A model generated the notes under the pieces. It saw only the letters and a program-made list of their open reading frames with translations. It searched no databases and had not been told where the DNA came from. A stretch of 64,000 bases of DNA, from assembly GCA_027494165.1 (NCBI GenBank), contig JAOSJM010000005.1, forward strand, positions 930,001 through 994,000, given 5' to 3'. Position numbers and translations under genes: made by a program. The DNA is from Acidimicrobiia bacterium (lineage in GTDB: Bacteria; Actinomycetota; Acidimicrobiia; IMCC26256; JAOSJM01). Positions 34,924 to 43,784 of the stretch are shown one piece after another; the stretch's first letter is position 1, and each line of letters begins with the position of its first letter.

Positions 34924-37863
34924 TCAGCGGACCGCGGCGCCCGAGGCCTCCTCGGTGGGCGCGGTCGTCTCGGGCGGGGCGGTGGTCGCCGTCTCGGGCG
35001 GCGGCGCCGTCGTCGTCGTGGTCGTCGCCCCACCCGCGAGCTCGTCGGCCCGGGCGAGGAGCTCGCCCACCTCCTCGATGAGCTCCGCGTACCGGCCGAG
35101 GTCGCCCTGCCGCAGGGCCTCCTCGGCCCGGGCGTAGGTCTCGTTCGCCTCCCCCAGCAGCGCCAGGACGTCGTCGTCGATCGGCGTGCCGTCGGGCACC
35201 TCGCCGCCCGAGACCGGCGGAGGCGGGGCCTCGCCGAAGATCTGCTGCAGGGCCCGTTCGAGCGAGGTGTCGATGACGGCCTGGCCCGCGTAGAAGACCG
35301 TGACGAAGCGGAACGACGGCAGGCGCGACCCGCTCTGGGCCTGCACGTAGACGGGCCGGATGTAGAGGATCGACTCCTCGACGGGGATGAGCTGCATGCT
35401 CCCCTGGATCACCCGGGACCCCTGGCGACCCAGGAGGGTGAACTGCTCCGAGATTTCCGTGGTCGTGTTGATGGCGTTGTTGGCCTGCTCCGGACCGATC
35501 ACCGTGCGGTCGGCCGGCATCACGAACGCCTCGATCTCGCCGTAGTCCTCGAAGTCCGACTTGGCCACCATGAAGGAGACCAGGTTCGTGAGCTGGTTCT
35601 CCGCCGAGACCGGGACGAAGGGCCGCAGGATGAGGAACTCCTCGGCCTCCTGGTCGGGGAGGCGGATCAGCAGGTAGAGCGGGTCGATCCGGGGGCCGGT
35701 GGAGCGCGCCTCCTGGGGCTCGTCGGTCGTGGTGGTGACGCCGTCGACAGCCTGGGTGACGTCGACCTCACCGGAGCCGGGGTCCGGCGAGACCGCCCAC
35801 AGGTCGGTGCGGTTGTAGAAGGTCGTCGAGTCGGTGACGTGGTAGCTGGCGAACACCTCGGTCTGCAGCGAGAAGAGGTCCTCCGGGTACCGCAGGTGGT
35901 CCTCCAACCCGTCGGGCAGCTCGTCCCGTTCGCTGAAGAGCTCGGGGAACGCCTTGCGGTAGGCGCGCAGCAGCGGGTCCTCGGGGTCCATCACGTAGAA
36001 GCGGATGGTGCCGTCGTAGGCGTCGACCGTCGCCTTGACCGAGTTGCGCACGTAGTTGTGGCTACCGTCCAGCCCTCCCTCGGCCCGGAACGACTGCGAG
36101 TAGGGGTAGCGGTCGGTGGTCGTGTACGCGTCGAGGACCCAGAGCACCCTCCCGTCGAGGATGACCGGGTAGGGGTCGTCGTCGTAACGGAGGAACGGCG
36201 CGGCCTTCTCGACCCGGTCCCGGATGTCGCGCAGGTACAGGATCCGGGTGCCCCCCTGCACCTGGCTGGAGATGAGCGGGTTGATGTCGGCGAATCGGAG
36301 GGCGAACGCCGCCCGCCGCAACCAACCCGACATCCCGACGCCCCCCTCGCCGTCGTACCGGGTGAACGCCGAGGTCTTGTCCTCCCGGGGGAAGTCGAAC
36401 TCGTCCTGCCCCGCCCCCACGAGGGCGTAGCCGCCCAGCTCCTCGCCGAAGTAGACCTGGGGCCGCTCGAGCGAGAGCTCGCCCTGGGGCGGGATGTCGC
36501 TGAGCAGGTACTCGGGGAACCCGTCGCGGTCGGCGGCGTTGGCCGGCGAGACCACGGCGCCGAACCCGTGCGTGTAGACGAGGTGGCGGTTGACCCAGCT
36601 CTGGCTGGGCAGGTCGTCGCGGTTGAGCTCGCGAGCCGCGAGGAGCACCTGGCGGACCTCCCCGTCGACCTCGTACCGGTCGATGTCGGCCTCCGCGAAG
36701 CGGTAGAACGTGCCGAGCTGCTGGAGCGACCGGTAGTTGCGGAGGATCTCGCCGGGGTCCCAGAGGCGGGCGTTGTCGATGGTGGCCGCGTTGGCCACGA
36801 CGTCCTCGGGGGTGAGGTCCTCGGCGTAGTCGAACCGCTTCACCTCGACGTCGGCCAGGTCGAAGGCGTCGCGCGTGGCGGCCACGTTCCGCTCGATGAA
36901 CCGGCGCTCGCTCTCGAGCTCGTTGGGGTCGACCCGGAAGCGCTGGTAGAGCGCCGGGTAGATGGTCCCCACGACGAGCGACACGAAGGCCCACAGCCCC
37001 ACCGCGATGACCGGGAGGACCCAGCCCCGCCGCCGGATGTTCACGAGGAAGAGCACCGCGGCGGCGATGGAGATGAAGATGAGGAGCCGCAGGGCGGGGA
37101 GCTGGGCGTTCACGTCGGTGGCGCCGGCCCCGTCGACCACGCCCCGGCTCGACAGGGCGAGGTTGTACTGCCCCAGGTAGTACTGCGCGGTCTTCGCCAG
37201 GGCCATCGCCCCCAGGATCACCGAGAGGTGCGCCTTGACCTGGGGCGTGACCCGCTGGAACGGGCTCTGGAACCGGATCCCCCCGTTGAGGTAGTGGGCC
37301 ACGGCGGTGACGAGCAACACGATGAGCAGCGAGAAGAACGCCCAGTCGGCGACGAAGCGAAGGAAGGGCAGCTCGAAGACGTAGAAGCCCACGTCCTTGC
37401 CGAACTGCGGATCCTCCACGCCGAAGTCGACCCGGTTGCGGAACAGGATCCACTCCCGCCACTGGGACGAGACGCCCGTACCGGCCACGAGCGCGAAGAA
37501 GGCGGCCACCCCGACGCGGATGCGGCCCTGGTAGGGACCGGCGAACTGCTGGTACCGCTCGAGGAGCTCGTCTTCGGGACCCATCGAGCGGAACTTGGGG
37601 GCCAACCGGTCGGCGATGACGAGGTTGGCGTACAGGACGGCGAAGAAGGCGACGGTGAACACCACGGCCGGGACGGCGCGGGCGCTCAGGAGGCCCCGCC
37701 AGGTGTCACCGAAGCCCACCGAGTCGAACCACAGGTAGTCGGTGTAGAAGGTGGCGAGCTGCCGGAGGCTCAGGACGAGCACGAGCAGCGCGACGGCGAC
37801 GGCGATCAGCCACGCGCGGCCGCGCAGCGAGGGACGGCGACGCTCGGTGTCAGGAAGGCGCAT
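34924..37863 (-). CDS. UPF0182 family membrane protein
   Basis: A 979-residue protein of the UPF0182 family, which is widespread in actinobacteria and has no settled function. The first 330 residues hold about seven transmembrane helices (AWLIAVAVALLVLVLSLRQL, FTVAFFAVLYANLVIADRL and so on) with the conserved TDYLWFDSVGF loop. The large extracytoplasmic part (residues 330-900) contains LVYTHGFGAVVSPANAADRDG and RDIRDRVEKAAPFLRYDDDPYPV. A Thr/Ala/Pro tail ends the protein. ATG 37863 is eight bases from TAGCAT. The PDZ/Lon-like protease gene two genes away is a conserved companion in actinobacteria. Confidence 0.92.
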   Translation of the reverse strand: MRLPDTERRRPSLRGRAWLIAVAVALLVLVLSLRQLATFYTDYLWFDSVGFGDTWRGLLSARAVPAVVFTVAFFAVLYANLVIADRLAPKFRSMGPEDELLERYQQFAGPYQGRIRVGVAAFFALVAGTGVSSQWREWILFRNRVDFGVEDPQFGKDVGFYVFELPFLRFVADWAFFSLLIVLLVTAVAHYLNGGIRFQSPFQRVTPQVKAHLSVILGAMALAKTAQYYLGQYNLALSSRGVVDGAGATDVNAQLPALRLLIFISIAAAVLFLVNIRRRGWVLPVIAVGLWAFVSLVVGTIYPALYQRFRVDPNELESERRFIERNVAATRDAFDLADVEVKRFDYAEDLTPEDVVANAATIDNARLWDPGEILRNYRSLQQLGTFYRFAEADIDRYEVDGEVRQVLLAARELNRDDLPSQSWVNRHLVYTHGFGAVVSPANAADRDGFPEYLLSDIPPQGELSLERPQVYFGEELGGYALVGAGQDEFDFPREDKTSAFTRYDGEGGVGMSGWLRRAAFALRFADINPLISSQVQGGTRILYLRDIRDRVEKAAPFLRYDDDPYPVILDGRVLWVLDAYTTTDRYPYSQSFRAEGGLDGSHNYVRNSVKATVDAYDGTIRFYVMDPEDPLLRAYRKAFPELFSERDELPDGLEDHLRYPEDLFSLQTEVFASYHVTDSTTFYNRTDLWAVSPDPGSGEVDVTQAVDGVTTTTDEPQEARSTGPRIDPLYLLIRLPDQEAEEFLILRPFVPVSAENQLTNLVSFMVAKSDFEDYGEIEAFVMPADRTVIGPEQANNAINTTTEISEQFTLLGRQGSRVIQGSMQLIPVEESILYIRPVYVQAQSGSRLPSFRFVTVFYAGQAVIDTSLERALQQIFGEAPPPPVSGGEVPDGTPIDDDVLALLGEANETYARAEEALRQGDLGRYAELIEEVGELLARADELAGGATTTTTTAPPPETATTAPPETTAPTEEASGAAVR

Positions 37864-37918
37864 CGCCCAGCATGCTAGAAGGCCGCGCCCGGGCGGCGGG
37901 TACGGGACCGGGGCCCGC

Positions 37919-39970
37919 TCACGGGCGCGTGGCGGAGACTCCGGCCCCCACCGCCGCCGCGGCGGCGAGGAGGCACCGGCAGCCCGGGTGGGCCGGGGGG
38001 TGCGTCTGGCCCGTCGGGAAGGCCTCGCCCTTCATCGTCGGCTCGAGCGCGTTGTCGTCGCAATCCGGGCACCGCCCGACCTCGGACGGGACCCAGCGGA
38101 GGACCGAACCCTCGGGGGCGGCGTCGAAGACGCCCCGGGCGAACGCCACCGCGAGCAGGTCGCCGACCGCCGGCTCGAGGGACTCGCTGCGCCACTCCCG
38201 GTACCGGGCCCCGATCCGCTCGGCCGAGTCGGCGTCGGCCGGCTCACCCTCGCCCCGGTCCCCGGTCGGCTCGCCCGACTCGTCGAGCGCGGAGCCGACC
38301 CGTTCCCGCATCGGCGTCACGAACCCCTCGGTGAGGGCCCGGGCCAGGTCCTCGGGAGGCTCGGCCGCGTCGGGCCGGGCGCCGCGGTAGGCCTCGGCGA
38401 CGGCGGGACCGAGCACCTCGCTCCACGCCGCCAGTTGCAAGTCGAGCGGGGGGAGGATCCGATCGGCCGTCGGACGGCCCCTGAGGGTCCGGAGCGCGTC
38501 GAGGAGCGCGTTCTGCTCGTCCTGCAGCATCCGCTTGGCCCGGCGCAGGAGTGCCCGCTCGACCGGGCGCAGGATCTCCGCGCGCGTCGCCAGCGCGGCC
38601 GCGTCGTCCTCGCCCCGGGCCTCGTCGTCGCCGTGCTCCGGGGTGGCGGTGTCGGCCTCGGCACCTTCCTCGACCTCGGACGCCAGGACCTCGCGCGCGC
38701 CGGCCACGGCCTCCTCCCGACTCGCCCGGAGCCTGGCGAAGATCTCCTGGACGTCCTTGCGCGGCTCCCCGGAGTCCGGCTCGGCCGGTCGCTCCTGGTC
38801 GGGCGGCAGCTCCTCGGCCGCGACACCCTCCCCGGCCGTCCCCTCGCCGAGCCCCAACGCGCTCCGCACGTAGGCCCGCAGGCCCGTCGGCCCGCCTTCC
38901 TCGGCGGGGGTCGCGCCCTCGACCTCGACCGGCCCGGTCCCGCTCTCCGTCCCACCGGCCCCGCCCTCCTCGGCGGGGGTCGCGCCCTCGACCTCGACCG
39001 GCCCGGTCCCGCTCTCCGTCCCACCGGCCCCGCCCTCCTCGGGGCGGCCGTGCTCGACGACGATCTCGACCTCCCGGGGCGCCTCGGCCGGCCCGGCGGG
39101 GGGGACCTCGGGCTCCGCCCCCGGCGCGACCCCCGGTCGCTCCTCCATCGACGCGACGCTTCGCTCCAGCTCGTCCTCGAGCGCCGGCAGGGCCACCGGA
39201 CCGGCGGCCTCGGGCCGCCGGTCGGCGTGGCTCAGCGCCTCGGTGGCCTCGGCGAGCGTGCGCTTCACGAGCCGGTAGGCCTCGAGCAGCCGGTCCCGTC
39301 CGCCGCGAAGCTCCTCGATCTGGGCCTGGAGGAGCGATCGGCGCCTGGCGAGGTCGGCGAGCACGCGCTCGCGCACCGCTCGGGCCTCGCTCACCATCTC
39401 GCGCCCGCTCGCCCGGGCCGCCTCGATCTCGGCCTCGGCGTCGCGGGCCGAGCGCTCGCGCTGCTCCTCCACGGTGCGCTCGGTCTCGGCCCGGAGCTCC
39501 GCCGCCCGGGTCTCGGCCGCCCGCTGGAGCGCCGTGGACGCCTCGTTGGCCTCGCGGAGGCGATCGGCGAGGAGGGTCTCGGCCTCCTCGCGCATGCGCC
39601 GGGCGTCGTCCTGGGCCTCCCGGACGATGAGCGTCGCCCGCTCCTCGGCCTTGGTCCGGATGTCCTGGGCGGCCTCCTGGGCCGAGCGCAGCACCCGGGC
39701 CGTCTCCTCCCCGAGCGCATCGAGGAGCTGGCGCTCGGTGATCGCCGGGGGATCGCTGAGCTGCCGTTCGAGCTCCTCGACCCGGTCGGTGAGCTCCCGC
39801 TCCCGCTCCCTCGAGTGGGCGACGTCGTCGGCGACCCGGCGCAGGAAGCTGCGGACCTCCGCCTCCGAGATCCCCCGGAACGCGCTCGGGAAGCCCCGGC
39901 TCACGATCTCGTCGGGCGAGAGCCGGGCCGCGCCCGGGATGCTTCGCCGGTGCCGATCACCGTCAGCCAT
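37919..39970 (-). CDS. DivIVA-domain coiled-coil protein with phage-head-protein-like zinc-binding tail
   Basis: 683 residues. N-terminus: LSPDEIVSRGFPSAFRGISEAEVRSFLRRVADDV, a DivIVA lipid-binding/polarity domain (residues 15-55). Residues 55-250 form a long Glu/Arg coiled coil (VEELERQLSDPPAITERQLL onward). Then an acidic Pro/Glu/Gly linker with a perfect repeat (GGAGGTESGTGPVEVEGATP twice), a helical domain (HRD-like ALLRRAKRMLQDEQNALLDAL) and a C-terminal RCPDCDDNALEPTMKGEAFPTGQTHPPAHPGCRCLL. That last block, with CXXC, GXXFPTG and HPGCRC, resembles the tail of phage minor head proteins (SPP1 gp7/Mu F type). Probably a cell-pole or septum organiser; the tail function is unknown. Confidence 0.8.
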   Translation of the reverse strand: MADGDRHRRSIPGAARLSPDEIVSRGFPSAFRGISEAEVRSFLRRVADDVAHSRERERELTDRVEELERQLSDPPAITERQLLDALGEETARVLRSAQEAAQDIRTKAEERATLIVREAQDDARRMREEAETLLADRLREANEASTALQRAAETRAAELRAETERTVEEQRERSARDAEAEIEAARASGREMVSEARAVRERVLADLARRRSLLQAQIEELRGGRDRLLEAYRLVKRTLAEATEALSHADRRPEAAGPVALPALEDELERSVASMEERPGVAPGAEPEVPPAGPAEAPREVEIVVEHGRPEEGGAGGTESGTGPVEVEGATPAEEGGAGGTESGTGPVEVEGATPAEEGGPTGLRAYVRSALGLGEGTAGEGVAAEELPPDQERPAEPDSGEPRKDVQEIFARLRASREEAVAGAREVLASEVEEGAEADTATPEHGDDEARGEDDAAALATRAEILRPVERALLRRAKRMLQDEQNALLDALRTLRGRPTADRILPPLDLQLAAWSEVLGPAVAEAYRGARPDAAEPPEDLARALTEGFVTPMRERVGSALDESGEPTGDRGEGEPADADSAERIGARYREWRSESLEPAVGDLLAVAFARGVFDAAPEGSVLRWVPSEVGRCPDCDDNALEPTMKGEAFPTGQTHPPAHPGCRCLLAAAAAVGAGVSATRP

Positions 39971-40133
39971 GCGGCCCCCAGGAGTTGATCCGACGCCTGC
40001 CTCGTGGGAGGTCCGCGGCGCGGACAGAGCCCCCGGCGAGGTCGTTCCATGGTATTGGCGGACGGGACGCTCGCGCCGGACCGGTTTCCCCCCGCGCGGG
40101 CGACCGACCCGCGTGCCACGGGGCGTGGCGCGG

Positions 40134-41288
40134 CTACGCGGCGCGGGTCGTCGGGGTGGTCTCCACCAGTGGGTCACCCCCGGCCGCCTCGAGCGCGGCC
40201 AGGGCCTCGTCGAGGTCGCGCACCGCCACGACCTCCATGTCCCCCGCCTCCGACCGGGCGTCCTCGACATTGCCGGGCGGGACGAGCATGAGGGTGGCCC
40301 CGGCCCGCCGCGCGGCGACGGCCTTCTGGGCCGCTCCGTCGATCTCCCCCACGGTCCCGTCGGGCGAGATCTCGCCGGTGACCCCGATCTTCCTGCCCCC
40401 GGCGAGGTCGCCGGGAGTCAGCTCGTCGACGATCTCCAGCGTGAAGGCCAGGCCGGCCGACGGACCGCTGACCGAGCCGGTGTCGATCTCCACGTCCACC
40501 GGGAAGTCGAGCTCGAGGTCACGGGTCACGACCGAGACCCCGATGAGCGCCCGCCCCTCGTCGTTCGCCGTGGTCGTGAGCGTGACCTCGCGGCTGCGCC
40601 CCTCGCGGTCGACGGTGAGGATCACCGGGTCGCCCGGAGCGCGGGTCCGGATCGCCGGGGCGAGGTCGTCGGCGAGCCGGACCGGCTCACCGTCGACCCC
40701 GACGATGGTGTCGCCGGGCTCCAGCTCGCCGTCGGCCGGGCTCCCCTCGACGACCGAGGCCACGAGCGCGCCCGTCCCCTCCATCGTCACCTCGTAGCCC
40801 AGTCGCTCCAGCGCCACCTTCGTGGCGACGAGCTGCGACTCGTCCATGAGCTCGATGTTGATGCGACGGTTCTCCTCTCGCGTGTGGGGACCGAGCACGT
40901 CCTCCTCGTCGCGGATCTCGTGGTCGTCCCGGAGCCAGGCGTAGCCCAGCCGGTAGACGTTGGGTCTCCGGTTGGACACCGACACGGTGAGGTAGAGGAA
41001 CGACCCCTCGTCCTCGTAGGTGGGCGCTCCCTCGATGGTCACAGCGCCACCGACCGGCGTGGCGTCTCCCGGGGAGACGATGACGTAGGGAAGGCGGACG
41101 AAGAACGCGGCGAGGGCGAGGACGGCCCCGACCGCCCCCACGACGACCGGGAGGACGCCGCCCCGCCGGGACCGGCGGGCGCGTGCGGGCGCCGACGGCC
41201 ACGGCGAGGGCGCGGATCGCTCGGGTGCGTCGTCCCCGTCGGTCGGCACGGCGGGCCCCTCCTCGGTCGGGAGCGACCAGCGTGCCAC
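40134..41288 (-). CDS. PDZ-domain membrane protease with Lon-like (S16) catalytic domain
   Basis: 384 residues, YlbL-like. One transmembrane helix (GVLPVVVGAVGAVLALAAFFV, residues 45-65), a PDZ domain (GALVASVVEGSPADGELEPGDTIVGVDG) around 185-245, and an S16 Lon-type domain with catalytic Ser in SVSGPSAGLAFTLEIVD near 290 and Lys in GAAQKAVAARRAGA near 340. Both catalytic residues are present. GTG 41288. It faces the cell exterior and probably processes membrane or secreted proteins. Family context: beside UPF0182 in many actinobacteria. Confidence 0.92.
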   Translation of the reverse strand: MARWSLPTEEGPAVPTDGDDAPERSAPSPWPSAPARARRSRRGGVLPVVVGAVGAVLALAAFFVRLPYVIVSPGDATPVGGAVTIEGAPTYEDEGSFLYLTVSVSNRRPNVYRLGYAWLRDDHEIRDEEDVLGPHTREENRRINIELMDESQLVATKVALERLGYEVTMEGTGALVASVVEGSPADGELEPGDTIVGVDGEPVRLADDLAPAIRTRAPGDPVILTVDREGRSREVTLTTTANDEGRALIGVSVVTRDLELDFPVDVEIDTGSVSGPSAGLAFTLEIVDELTPGDLAGGRKIGVTGEISPDGTVGEIDGAAQKAVAARRAGATLMLVPPGNVEDARSEAGDMEVVAVRDLDEALAALEAAGGDPLVETTPTTRAA

Positions 41289-41321
41289 GCCTCCACGCGC
41301 CCCGACGACGCGAGGTCGCTC

Positions 41322-41994
41322 CTAGGCCGGCGGGACCAGCTCGGCGTAGACCACGTAGCGGTACGCCGCGCTCCCGGGTGGGTGGCAGGCGAAGAGCGTC
41401 AGGGTGTACCCGGGGGCCTGGTCGACGATCCGGACCGCGTCGGGGGTCACGACCTCGTACCCGGTCACCCGGTAGGTGAAGAGGCCCTCGTCGGTCCGGA
41501 GGAGGATCTCGTCGCCCTCCACGAGCTCGTCGATGCGCCGGAAGGGGTGCGAGTGGGTCACGCGGTGGCCCGCCAGGACGACGTTGCCGTATCCGCCCGG
41601 CAGGGGCGTGCCGGGCCAGTGGCCCGGCCCCTCGTCGATGACCGTCAGCCACACCCCCTCGTAGATCGTGTGGACCAGCCCGATCCTGGGGATCTCGACC
41701 TCGCCGATCGGGACGACGGGCACGTCGGCCCGCGGGTCGACAGGGGGTCCTGGGGCCGGGAGAGTGCCGGGAGGGTCGTCGTGGTGCCCGGCGCCGCGAC
41801 GGTCGAGGTCGTCGTGGTCGGGGCCCGGGTGACGATGGTGGGGTCGTCGGCCGGGGGTCGCTCGCCCGGTCCTCCCCCGCGAGGCCGGCCGAGCCGGCGA
41901 CGATCGCCGCCAGGGCGACCAGCCCGGAGACGGCGAAGAGCCTCGGGCGGCTCCAGCGGCTCGACGCTGCGCGGCGTGCACCCTCCTGAGGCAC
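41322..41994 (-). CDS. Class E sortase (two apparent frameshifts)
   Basis: Transpeptidase attaching sorting-signal proteins to peptidoglycan. About 224 residues: GTG 41994 (four bases after AGGAGG), a signal anchor (RLFAVSGLVALAAIVAGSAG), a Thr/Pro linker, then VVPIGEVEIPRIGLVHTIYEG, GNVVLAGHRVTHSHPFRRID (catalytic His) and YTLTLFACHPPGSAAYRYVV (catalytic Cys and Arg). Two runs are one base short: C5 at plus 41874-41878 and G5 at 41743-41747. The catalytic domain itself is continuous. ATG 42036 is an alternative start. Probable partner of the LPATG protein at 29.2 kb. Confidence 0.85.
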
Positions 41995-42071
41995 GGATCC
42001 TCCTGCGCGCCCTCCGCACGGCGCTCGCCTCGGCATCGGCCGTCTCCGGGTGACACTGTAGGTTCGGTCGC

Positions 42072-42776
42072 GTGACGCCTCCACGTCGCCACCCGACCGC
42101 GACCGGGGCCCCGGACCTCGAGGGACTCGCCGGACCGTCGGGCCTCGAGCGGGCCGCGCGGGCCGCGGCCCTCGGGATGCTCCCGACGCTCCCCCGCGGC
42201 GCCCCGGGCACGCTCGAGCGGATGGCGGGGACGGACCCCGATCCGCGCGCCCGCTCGGCGGCCCTCGGGGCGCTGGCCCGATCGGCCGGCCGCCGGCGGG
42301 CCTCCAGGGCCTGGCGGCGAGCGCTGGCCGATCCCGACGCCGCGGTCCGCCGGAGGGCCGCCGAGCTGGCCCCGGCCGTCGGGGGAACGGTCCGGCCGCT
42401 CCTCGGCCTGCTCCACGACCTCGACGTGACGGTGGTCGAGGCGGCCGCCTGGGCCCTCGGCGAGCTGGGCGACGCGACCCGGCGGACCCGGGCCGTCGCC
42501 GCCCTCGCCTCGGTGGCCGTCGGACACGACGACCCGCTGGCCCGTGAGGCGGCGGTGGCGGCCCTCGGGGCCCTGGGCGATCCCGCAGGCCTTCCGGCGG
42601 TGCTGGTCGCGTGCCGGGACCGACCGGCGGTGCGCCGGCGGGCCGTGCTCGCCCTCTCGCCCTTCGCCGGCCCCGAGGTCGACGCCGCGCTCGACCGCGC
42701 GGCACGCGACGTCGACTGGCAGGTGCGGCAGGCCGCCGACGAGCTCCGTGGCGGCCCGGCGCGCCCCGGCTGCTAG
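42072..42776 (+). CDS. HEAT-repeat protein
   Basis: A 234-residue alpha-solenoid made of six to seven HEAT/PBS-lyase-type repeats (RSAALGALARSAGRRRASRAW, AAAWALGELGDATRRTRAVAAL, REAAVAALGALGDPAGLPAVL). Soluble, a likely protein-interaction scaffold; partner unknown. GTG 42072 lies seven bases after TAGGTT (42059-42064), so it is leaderless. It shares a divergent promoter with the sortase and ends directly before the convergent mreB stop. Confidence 0.85.
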   Translation: MTPPRRHPTATGAPDLEGLAGPSGLERAARAAALGMLPTLPRGAPGTLERMAGTDPDPRARSAALGALARSAGRRRASRAWRRALADPDAAVRRRAAELAPAVGGTVRPLLGLLHDLDVTVVEAAAWALGELGDATRRTRAVAALASVAVGHDDPLAREAAVAALGALGDPAGLPAVLVACRDRPAVRRRAVLALSPFAGPEVDAALDRAARDVDWQVRQAADELRGGPARPGC

Positions 42777-43784
42777 CTACGCGCGAGGGCGGCCCATGAA
42801 CATGTCTCGCAGGGTGTCGAAGGACTCGAGGCACCGCCCGGCACCCAGCACGACGCACTCCAGGGGAGCGTCCACGAGGCGCACGGGAAGGGCCGTCTCG
42901 CGTGCGATGCGCTCGTCGAGCCCCCGGAGCATCCCCCCGCCGCCGGTGAGGTGGATCCCCTGCACGATGAGGTCCTGGGCCAGCTCCGGCGGGGTCTGGG
43001 CCAGGGCGCTCACGACCGCGTCGCAGACCGCCCGGACCTGCTCCTCGATGGCGTCGCGCACCTCCTCGGGGGAGAGCACGATCGTCTTGGGGAGCCCGCT
43101 CATGAGGTCACGGCCGCGCACCTCGGCCTTGTACTCCTCCGGGGTCGGGTAGGCCGAGCCGATGGCCAGCTTGATCTCCTCGGCCGTCCGCTCCCCGATG
43201 GCGATGCCGTACTCCCGGCGCACGTAGGCCTGGATGGCGGCGTCGATGTCGAAGGAGCCGACCCGGACCGCCTCGAGCGCGACCACGCCGCCCAGCGAGA
43301 TGACGGCCACCTCGGTGGTCCCACCGCCGACGTCGACGACCATGTTGCCGAGCGGCTCGTGGATCGGCAGGCCCGCCCCGATGGCCGCGGCCATCGGCTG
43401 CTCGATGAGGTAGGTCGTGGCCGCCCCGGCGCGCCGGGCCGCCTCCAGCACGGCCCGCTGCTCGACGTGGGTGATCGCCGACGGGACGCAGATGAGCACC
43501 CGGGCGCGGTAGAGCCGGGACACGCCGGCCCGCTGGAACAGCAGGCGAATCATCCGCTGGGTGATCTCGAAGTCGGTGATGGCTCCCCCGCGGAGGGGCC
43601 GGACCGCCACGATGTAGCCGGGCGTGCGCCCGATCATCTGCCACGCCTCGTGGCCCATGGCGAGCACGTCCTGGGTCCGGCTGTTGAGCGCGATCACCGT
43701 CGGCTCGTTGAGGATGATCCCCTGCCCGCGCGAGTAGACGAGCGTGTTGGCGGTGCCCAGGTCGATCGCGAGGTCCCTAGCCAG
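42777..43784 (-). CDS. mreB: MreB/Mbl-type rod-shape actin homologue, probable CTG start
   Basis: About 335 residues of actin-fold ATPase. The usual N-terminus ARDLAIDLGTANTLVYSRGQGIILNEPTVIAL is encoded upstream of any ATG, GTG or TTG; the codon in place of the start is CTG (43784), with GGAG and GAGGAG upstream and a TACGGT box near 43811-43816. Starting at GTG 43697 would delete phosphate-loop 1. Other motifs: VVDVGGGTTEVAVISLGGV (phosphate 2), GERTAEEIKLAIGSAYP and LTGGGGMLRGLDERI (adenosine). Directs cell-wall synthesis along the cytoplasmic membrane. Confidence 0.88.
   Translation of the reverse strand: MARDLAIDLGTANTLVYSRGQGIILNEPTVIALNSRTQDVLAMGHEAWQMIGRTPGYIVAVRPLRGGAITDFEITQRMIRLLFQRAGVSRLYRARVLICVPSAITHVEQRAVLEAARRAGAATTYLIEQPMAAAIGAGLPIHEPLGNMVVDVGGGTTEVAVISLGGVVALEAVRVGSFDIDAAIQAYVRREYGIAIGERTAEEIKLAIGSAYPTPEEYKAEVRGRDLMSGLPKTIVLSPEEVRDAIEEQVRAVCDAVVSALAQTPPELAQDLIVQGIHLTGGGGMLRGLDERIARETALPVRLVDAPLECVVLGAGRCLESFDTLRDMFMGRPRA

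Follow-up and report, generated by a model that had tools for sequence, protein, structure and literature searches.

The 64,000-nucleotide stretch of Acidimicrobiia DNA analysed here (the window) carries, at positions 34924-43697, an envelope-type gene cluster encoding MreB, a sortase, a PDZ-Lon protease, a DivIVA-MuF fusion protein and a UPF0182 protein, followed by SufB/SufD. MreB and the sortase lie further upstream of the fusion gene and SufB/SufD lie downstream of it. The fusion gene occupies exactly the limits assigned to it in a first-pass annotation and is encoded on the minus strand, its reading frame running from an ATG at 39970 to a stop codon at 37919 (683 codons). The gene, its parts and its two immediate neighbours are listed below.

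34924..37863, minus strand: gene for a UPF0182 membrane protein, directly downstream of the fusion gene across a 55 bp gap (PF03699, E = 3.8e-271)
37919..39970, minus strand: DivIVA-MuF fusion gene, 683 aa (homologues found)
37964..38104, minus strand: MuF-like C-terminal Cys/His tail, residues 623-669, with W626, C634, C637, H661, C664 and C666, a putative Zn knuckle (hhalign, ligand counts)
38105..38587, minus strand: MuF-like domain, helical bundle, residues 462-622, with KR.LQDEQN..LD.LR, PLR.RL and YREWK helices (alignments A1/A3, AlphaFold model, phrog_2662)
38606..39190, minus strand: acidic low-complexity linker, residues 261-455, net charge -35
38705..38761, minus strand: short linear motif RKDVQEIFARLRASREEAV within the linker, residues 404-422, conserved in relatives
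39191..39745, minus strand: conserved coiled-coil segment, residues 76-260, consensus LGEETARVLRSAxEAA..IR..AEE (alignment A4)
39548..39922, minus strand: DivIVA N-terminal membrane-binding/coiled-coil domain, residues 17-141, with an F31-R32-G33 loop (PF05103, TIGR03544)
40134..41288, minus strand: gene for a PDZ-Lon (S16) protease with a YlbL-like domain layout, directly upstream of the fusion gene (PDZ_2, 3.3e-14; Lon_C, 2.4e-9)

The tail blocks quoted in the annotation were all present: RCPDCDDNALEP (CPDCDDN, residues 634-640), GEAFPTGQ (648-655) and HPPAHPGCRC (657-666). The linker carries a perfect tandem 23-aa duplication, EEGGAGGTESGTGPVEVEGATPA (residues 311-333 and 334-356; window positions 38903-39040, minus strand).

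The assignment of a DivIVA domain to the N-terminus is unambiguous. PF05103 matched residues 17-141 with an E-value of 2.4e-15 and a score of 57.1 bits, above the curated Pfam threshold of 28, and TIGR03544 matched the DivIVA part at 1e-6 (28.2 bits, cut-off 22). Among 47 relatives, F27, G33, V39 and L43 of this domain are invariant; within the F31-R32-G33 loop, position 31 is F in 21 of the 47 and position 32 is R or K in every one. DivIVA proteins are membrane bound via the N-terminal domain and oligomerise via their coiled coils (PMC8872289). The window protein shares with the DivIVA/Wag31 family (PF05103) the N-terminal domain with its F-R-G loop and the coiled coil, whereas its long acidic linker, its MuF module, its location outside the sepF cluster and its weak Wag31 score set it apart. 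Since the score against the Wag31 equivalog NF050102 was 22.5 bits for a cut-off of 260, the protein is best described as a DivIVA-domain protein and not as a Wag31 orthologue. Another, canonical DivIVA adjoins YggS and SepF on contig C1 of the same genome, in the usual sepF cluster, which makes the fusion protein a further, specialised scaffold. With two DivIVA genes in the genome, this protein is probably not the main pole organiser of the cell.

The first-pass annotation had also noted that the C-terminal tail resembles SPP1 gp7/Mu F minor head proteins. With the window protein as a single query, PHROG matches had E-values of 0.016-0.53, including phrog_1657 (head morphogenesis, E = 0.53, residues 624-670); TIGR01641 matched the last 18 motif residues at E = 4, and a Pfam scan of the protein gave no match to PF04233. 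The resemblance was real but a single-sequence search could not settle homology, and family alignments were therefore built. The C-terminal domains of 53 sequences (alignment A1) served as a search profile, and the members were also scanned singly. Among these 53 relatives, 40 matched phrog_2662 (portal protein, the C-terminal part of which is MuF; best E = 1e-14), 33 matched TIGR01641 SPP1_gp7 (best 2e-4) and 11 matched PF04233 (best 5.6e-6), with matches to further head-morphogenesis PHROGs as well. In several relatives the phrog_2662 match spans the full domain, as in L058 (residues 6-202 against profile positions 492-707, E = 2e-10), and the full-length L171 protein matched this profile at E = 2.2e-17. 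No full-length protein scanned reached the PF04233 gathering cut-off of 29.6 (best score, 20.0 bits), which would explain why annotation pipelines, and a survey based on Pfam cut-offs, would overlook the domain.

Profile-profile comparison by hhalign of A1 with 38 phage MuF domains gave a probability of 99.5 and E = 2e-23, with 159 columns aligned collinearly. For the Cys/His tail by itself (the last 47 residues), E was 4e-20. The helical part alone aligned with 39% probability (E = 3e-4) in an unchanged register and, by itself, is only moderate evidence for MuF homology. As controls, reversed alignments gave about 5% probability and the window protein's own coiled coil gave an E-value of 0.87. 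Because the 38-protein phage set had been chosen partly via the tail motif, and the PHROG and BFVD results had not, the PHROG and fold results form the unbiased part of the evidence. When the window domain was compared by tblastn with 50,697 phage records, a collection used without SPP1's own record, only weak matches were obtained. Most of the matched phage genes are annotated as minor head protein, MuF-like, capsid maturation protease or portal-MuF fusion, and among the records fetched most of them adjoin portal genes. Within the tail, C664 and C666 are invariant across the 53 relatives, C634 and H661 occur in 51 and C637 in 45, a ligand pattern suggesting that the tail likely binds metal.

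We next turn to the fold. An AlphaFold2 model of the window domain, computed with 80 bacterial relatives and zero phage sequences, consists of a helical bundle followed by a small beta/Cys-His tail (mean pLDDT 92, pTM 0.87). In a Foldseek search of BFVD, the model matched phage proteins over its full length with a probability of about 1.0 and a query TM of up to 0.66; the top matches that carry names are portal, head-morphogenesis and minor capsid proteins, a capsid maturation protease and a MuF-like minor capsid protein. The predicted model thus has a MuF fold. A fold search of the PDB with the same model found no similar solved structure. Sequence matches to PDB entries (ZorA, E 0.006) were set aside as chance helical matches, or coiled-coil noise. 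Altogether, the profile search of the C-terminal region against phage head families, the hhalign comparison and the structural matches agree that the domain is homologous to phage MuF proteins. The likeness stands at the C-terminal signature, where it was originally placed, but the homologous part is the whole domain of about 200 residues, helical bundle plus tail.

The bacterial domain shares with the MuF superfamily (PF04233 Phage_Mu_F, TIGR01641 SPP1_gp7, PF06152; PHROG 2662/115/1657) a helical bundle followed by a terminal W...CxxC...G...F..G..PPxHPxCRC, with profile and fold matches over the full domain. In contrast to phage MuF proteins, it is found outside phage, with no adjoining portal gene, and is fused C-terminally to DivIVA. 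The best-matching phage family is that of the actinophage portal-MuF fusions (Arthrobacter phage Sonali, Streptomyces phage Chymera; phrog_2662). There, as in DivIVA-MuF, a larger oligomeric protein carries MuF as its C-terminal module, but the N-terminal partner is the portal protein, whereas in the bacterial protein it is DivIVA. A survey by Jamet et al. treats MuF proteins as phage-encoded parts of the virion (PMC5576092), and the MuF fusions described are with the portal or with C-terminal toxins (PMC5576092; L197) and not with DivIVA. Our literature search found no report combining DivIVA with MuF, a minor head protein or Acidimicrobiia, nor did the texts consulted that mention both 'head morphogenesis' and DivIVA describe such a fusion. 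In agreement with the first-pass annotation, the DivIVA-MuF architecture and its domestication appear to be new, both parts coming from known families.

A search of 120 related genomes recovered full-length homologues across the order and the class. The domain occurs in 165 of 197 class genomes (84%) and in 108 of 119 genera, with one match apiece in nearly all. The named records among the matches belong to the Acidimicrobiia; one of them is the complete genome of Actinobacteria bacterium IMCC26256 (CP011489.1). Outside the class, the domain was found in 16 genomes from six families of the same phylum, and most of those examined have an N-terminal DivIVA domain. Nearly every close homologue has the tail; the domain match ends before the Cys/His tail in at least 15 class genomes. 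One genome (G068) has two copies of the fusion gene (L188 and L189), both without the Cys/His tail, and another locus (L050, G012:C98) has an unusually long open frame of 1476 codons with a divergent MuF tail. In a maximum-likelihood tree, 43 DivIVA-MuF domains and 36 phage MuF domains fall on opposite sides of a single branch with support of 100/99, and the members from outside the class sit inside the DivIVA-MuF group. The tree is consistent with one capture of the MuF domain. DivIVA-less L068 is nested within the DivIVA-MuF group, indicating that DivIVA was lost secondarily. No phage genes were seen around the locus and no portal gene lies near it. With housekeeping neighbours only, and neither a portal gene nor a virion module adjoining it, the protein appears to be a domesticated homologue and not a virion protein. 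The earlier description of the tail as a domesticated phage module is borne out by class-wide conservation, a single clade and these housekeeping neighbours. We regard both the homology of the module at about residues 462-669 to phage MuF/SPP1-gp7 minor head proteins and its domestication as shown with high confidence.

The gene neighbourhood is highly constant. All 126 non-redundant loci with room for it have UPF0182 downstream on the same strand, at a gap of 700 bp or less in 109, the other 17 having been seen separately. Of 106 loci with sufficient room, 76 have the PDZ-Lon protease gene directly upstream. UPF0182 is a large conserved family of membrane proteins that is widespread in Actinomycetota, Mycobacterium included. 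The PDZ-Lon gene product has PDZ and Lon_C domains in common with B. subtilis YlbL, a likeness that concerns only this neighbour of the fusion gene. YlbL is a PDZ-Lon membrane protease that acts in DNA-damage checkpoint recovery (PMC6051672).

Elsewhere in the phylum, PDZ-Lon often abuts UPF0182 directly with nothing in between, so that the slot between them can be described by four states: empty, DivIVA without MuF, DivIVA-MuF, and MuF without DivIVA. Most of the class is in the DivIVA-MuF state. DivIVA without MuF occupies the slot upstream of UPF0182 in L318, L313-L315 and L304, and family f12 (L068, L115, L127 and L030) has a near-solitary MuF, having lost DivIVA, directly after the PDZ-Lon gene; L026 and L027 retain a coiled-coil remnant only. 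The occurrence of either module on its own indicates that the two are not obligately coupled. Degradation or loss of the MuF part is apparent in family f90. In fusion-less genomes with a readable upstream gene, the slot is mostly empty or holds a MuF-less DivIVA. UPF0182 was kept in 16 of 20 genomes lacking the fusion, and co-loss of the two was not seen among them. Since UPF0182 is found without the fusion, including in most fusion-less genomes of the class, it does not depend on it.

The linker contains a conserved peptide, with the consensus V(D/E)xLFAR(L/I)RAxR, between the coiled coil and MuF (residues 404-422 in the window protein). A strict form of the pattern was found in 95 of 138 relatives and in none of the shuffled linkers; a relaxed form was found in 116 of the 138, compared with 0.6% of shuffled linkers. 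The LFARLR motif is kept in DivIVA-MuF, MuF-less and DivIVA-less forms alike, at or near the C-terminus of the MuF-less forms and near the N-terminus of the DivIVA-less ones. Because it survives the loss of either domain, and at those ends, the motif probably binds a third component. The LFAR(L/I)R peptide is thus a candidate partner-binding element.

On balance, we favor a reading in which the fusion protein is a second, specialised DivIVA scaffold bearing a phage MuF (SPP1 gp7-like) partner-binding module that was captured once and then inherited by vertical descent. The DivIVA head and coiled coil would self-assemble where the membrane is curved, at the septum or the poles, and the long disordered acidic linker, with its LFARLR-type helical peptide, would display the MuF domain. 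In phage, a domain of this type docks to an oligomeric ring, the portal, and this capacity is probably re-used here for a polar or septal membrane complex. SPP1 gp7 binds strongly to the portal and enters the procapsid in few copies (PMC6316719); the function of the MuF domain itself has been described as unknown (PMC5576092). Because of the constant neighbourhood, the UPF0182 protein from the next gene would be the most probable docking partner of the MuF module, and docking perhaps coordinates UPF0182 with PDZ-Lon. The Cys/His tail is probably a structural clamp that binds zinc. The steps that concern partner and localisation are tentative. We put forward with still more reserve a wider hypothesis, that a MuF portal-docking domain captured once in an actinobacterial lineage became the cargo module of a dedicated DivIVA scaffold, which might form with UPF0182 and PDZ-Lon a novel polar or septal envelope complex, its parts separately lost and the LFARLR peptide joining them.

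Other explanations were weighed against this one. The MuF module could instead bind DNA and tie the chromosome to the DivIVA-coated membrane, as a one-protein counterpart of DivIVA-ParB tethering. Actinobacterial DivIVA does tether ParB and the origin (PMC8872289), the title of a reference cited by PMC6316719 calls gp7 a DNA-binding protein targeted by the portal, and the first MuF helix has an invariant K479 and mostly R480 and R494. However, the domain is acidic (mean net charge -6.5 in 53 relatives, against -3.7 for phage MuF), which weakens the DNA-binding alternative, and the operon neighbours are membrane and protease genes, not segregation genes; we regard the tether as unlikely. It is less likely again that the protein is an anti-phage decoy, in which captured MuF at the membrane would bind the portal or scaffold proteins of an infecting phage, poisoning head assembly. 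Host and prophage proteins that block virion assembly are known (PMC10884400) and the homology to a virion component is clear, but a single match in nearly all class genomes and vertical descent weaken this idea, as do the fixed housekeeping neighbours and the lack of a defence-gene context. PADLOC gave no match to the MuF domain; its matches elsewhere in the protein were to the coiled coil only and were discarded as noise.

The two remaining explanations concern the origin of the module. If the MuF likeness were a convergence limited to the short Cys/His tail, the helical bundle would be an unrelated extension of DivIVA. The bulk of the sequence signal does lie in the last 47 residues, as the separate hhalign values for tail and helices indicate, and some relatives lack the tail. 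Yet several relatives give PHROG matches along all 200 aa, the helices hold the same register in alignment, unlike the reversed controls, and a model made from phage-free input matches phage proteins from end to end, so that we consider convergence highly improbable. A decaying, functionless prophage remnant joined to divIVA by chance would account for the phage origin of the domain, but is already refuted by the conservation of the domain across the class and beyond, with invariant residues, open frames in most of the 165 genomes and housekeeping neighbours.

Taken as a specialised DivIVA scaffold with a phage-derived module, DivIVA-MuF clearly exemplifies the recruitment of a virion protein by a bacterial scaffold. 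Here MuF is inherited vertically throughout the class and likely serves in housekeeping, which makes it possible to learn in a phage-free setting what this fold binds. The fusion is also a first functional lead on the UPF0182 family, which is of unknown function. In nearly all members of one actinobacterial class, a part of a phage has seemingly become a housekeeping element of the cell envelope.
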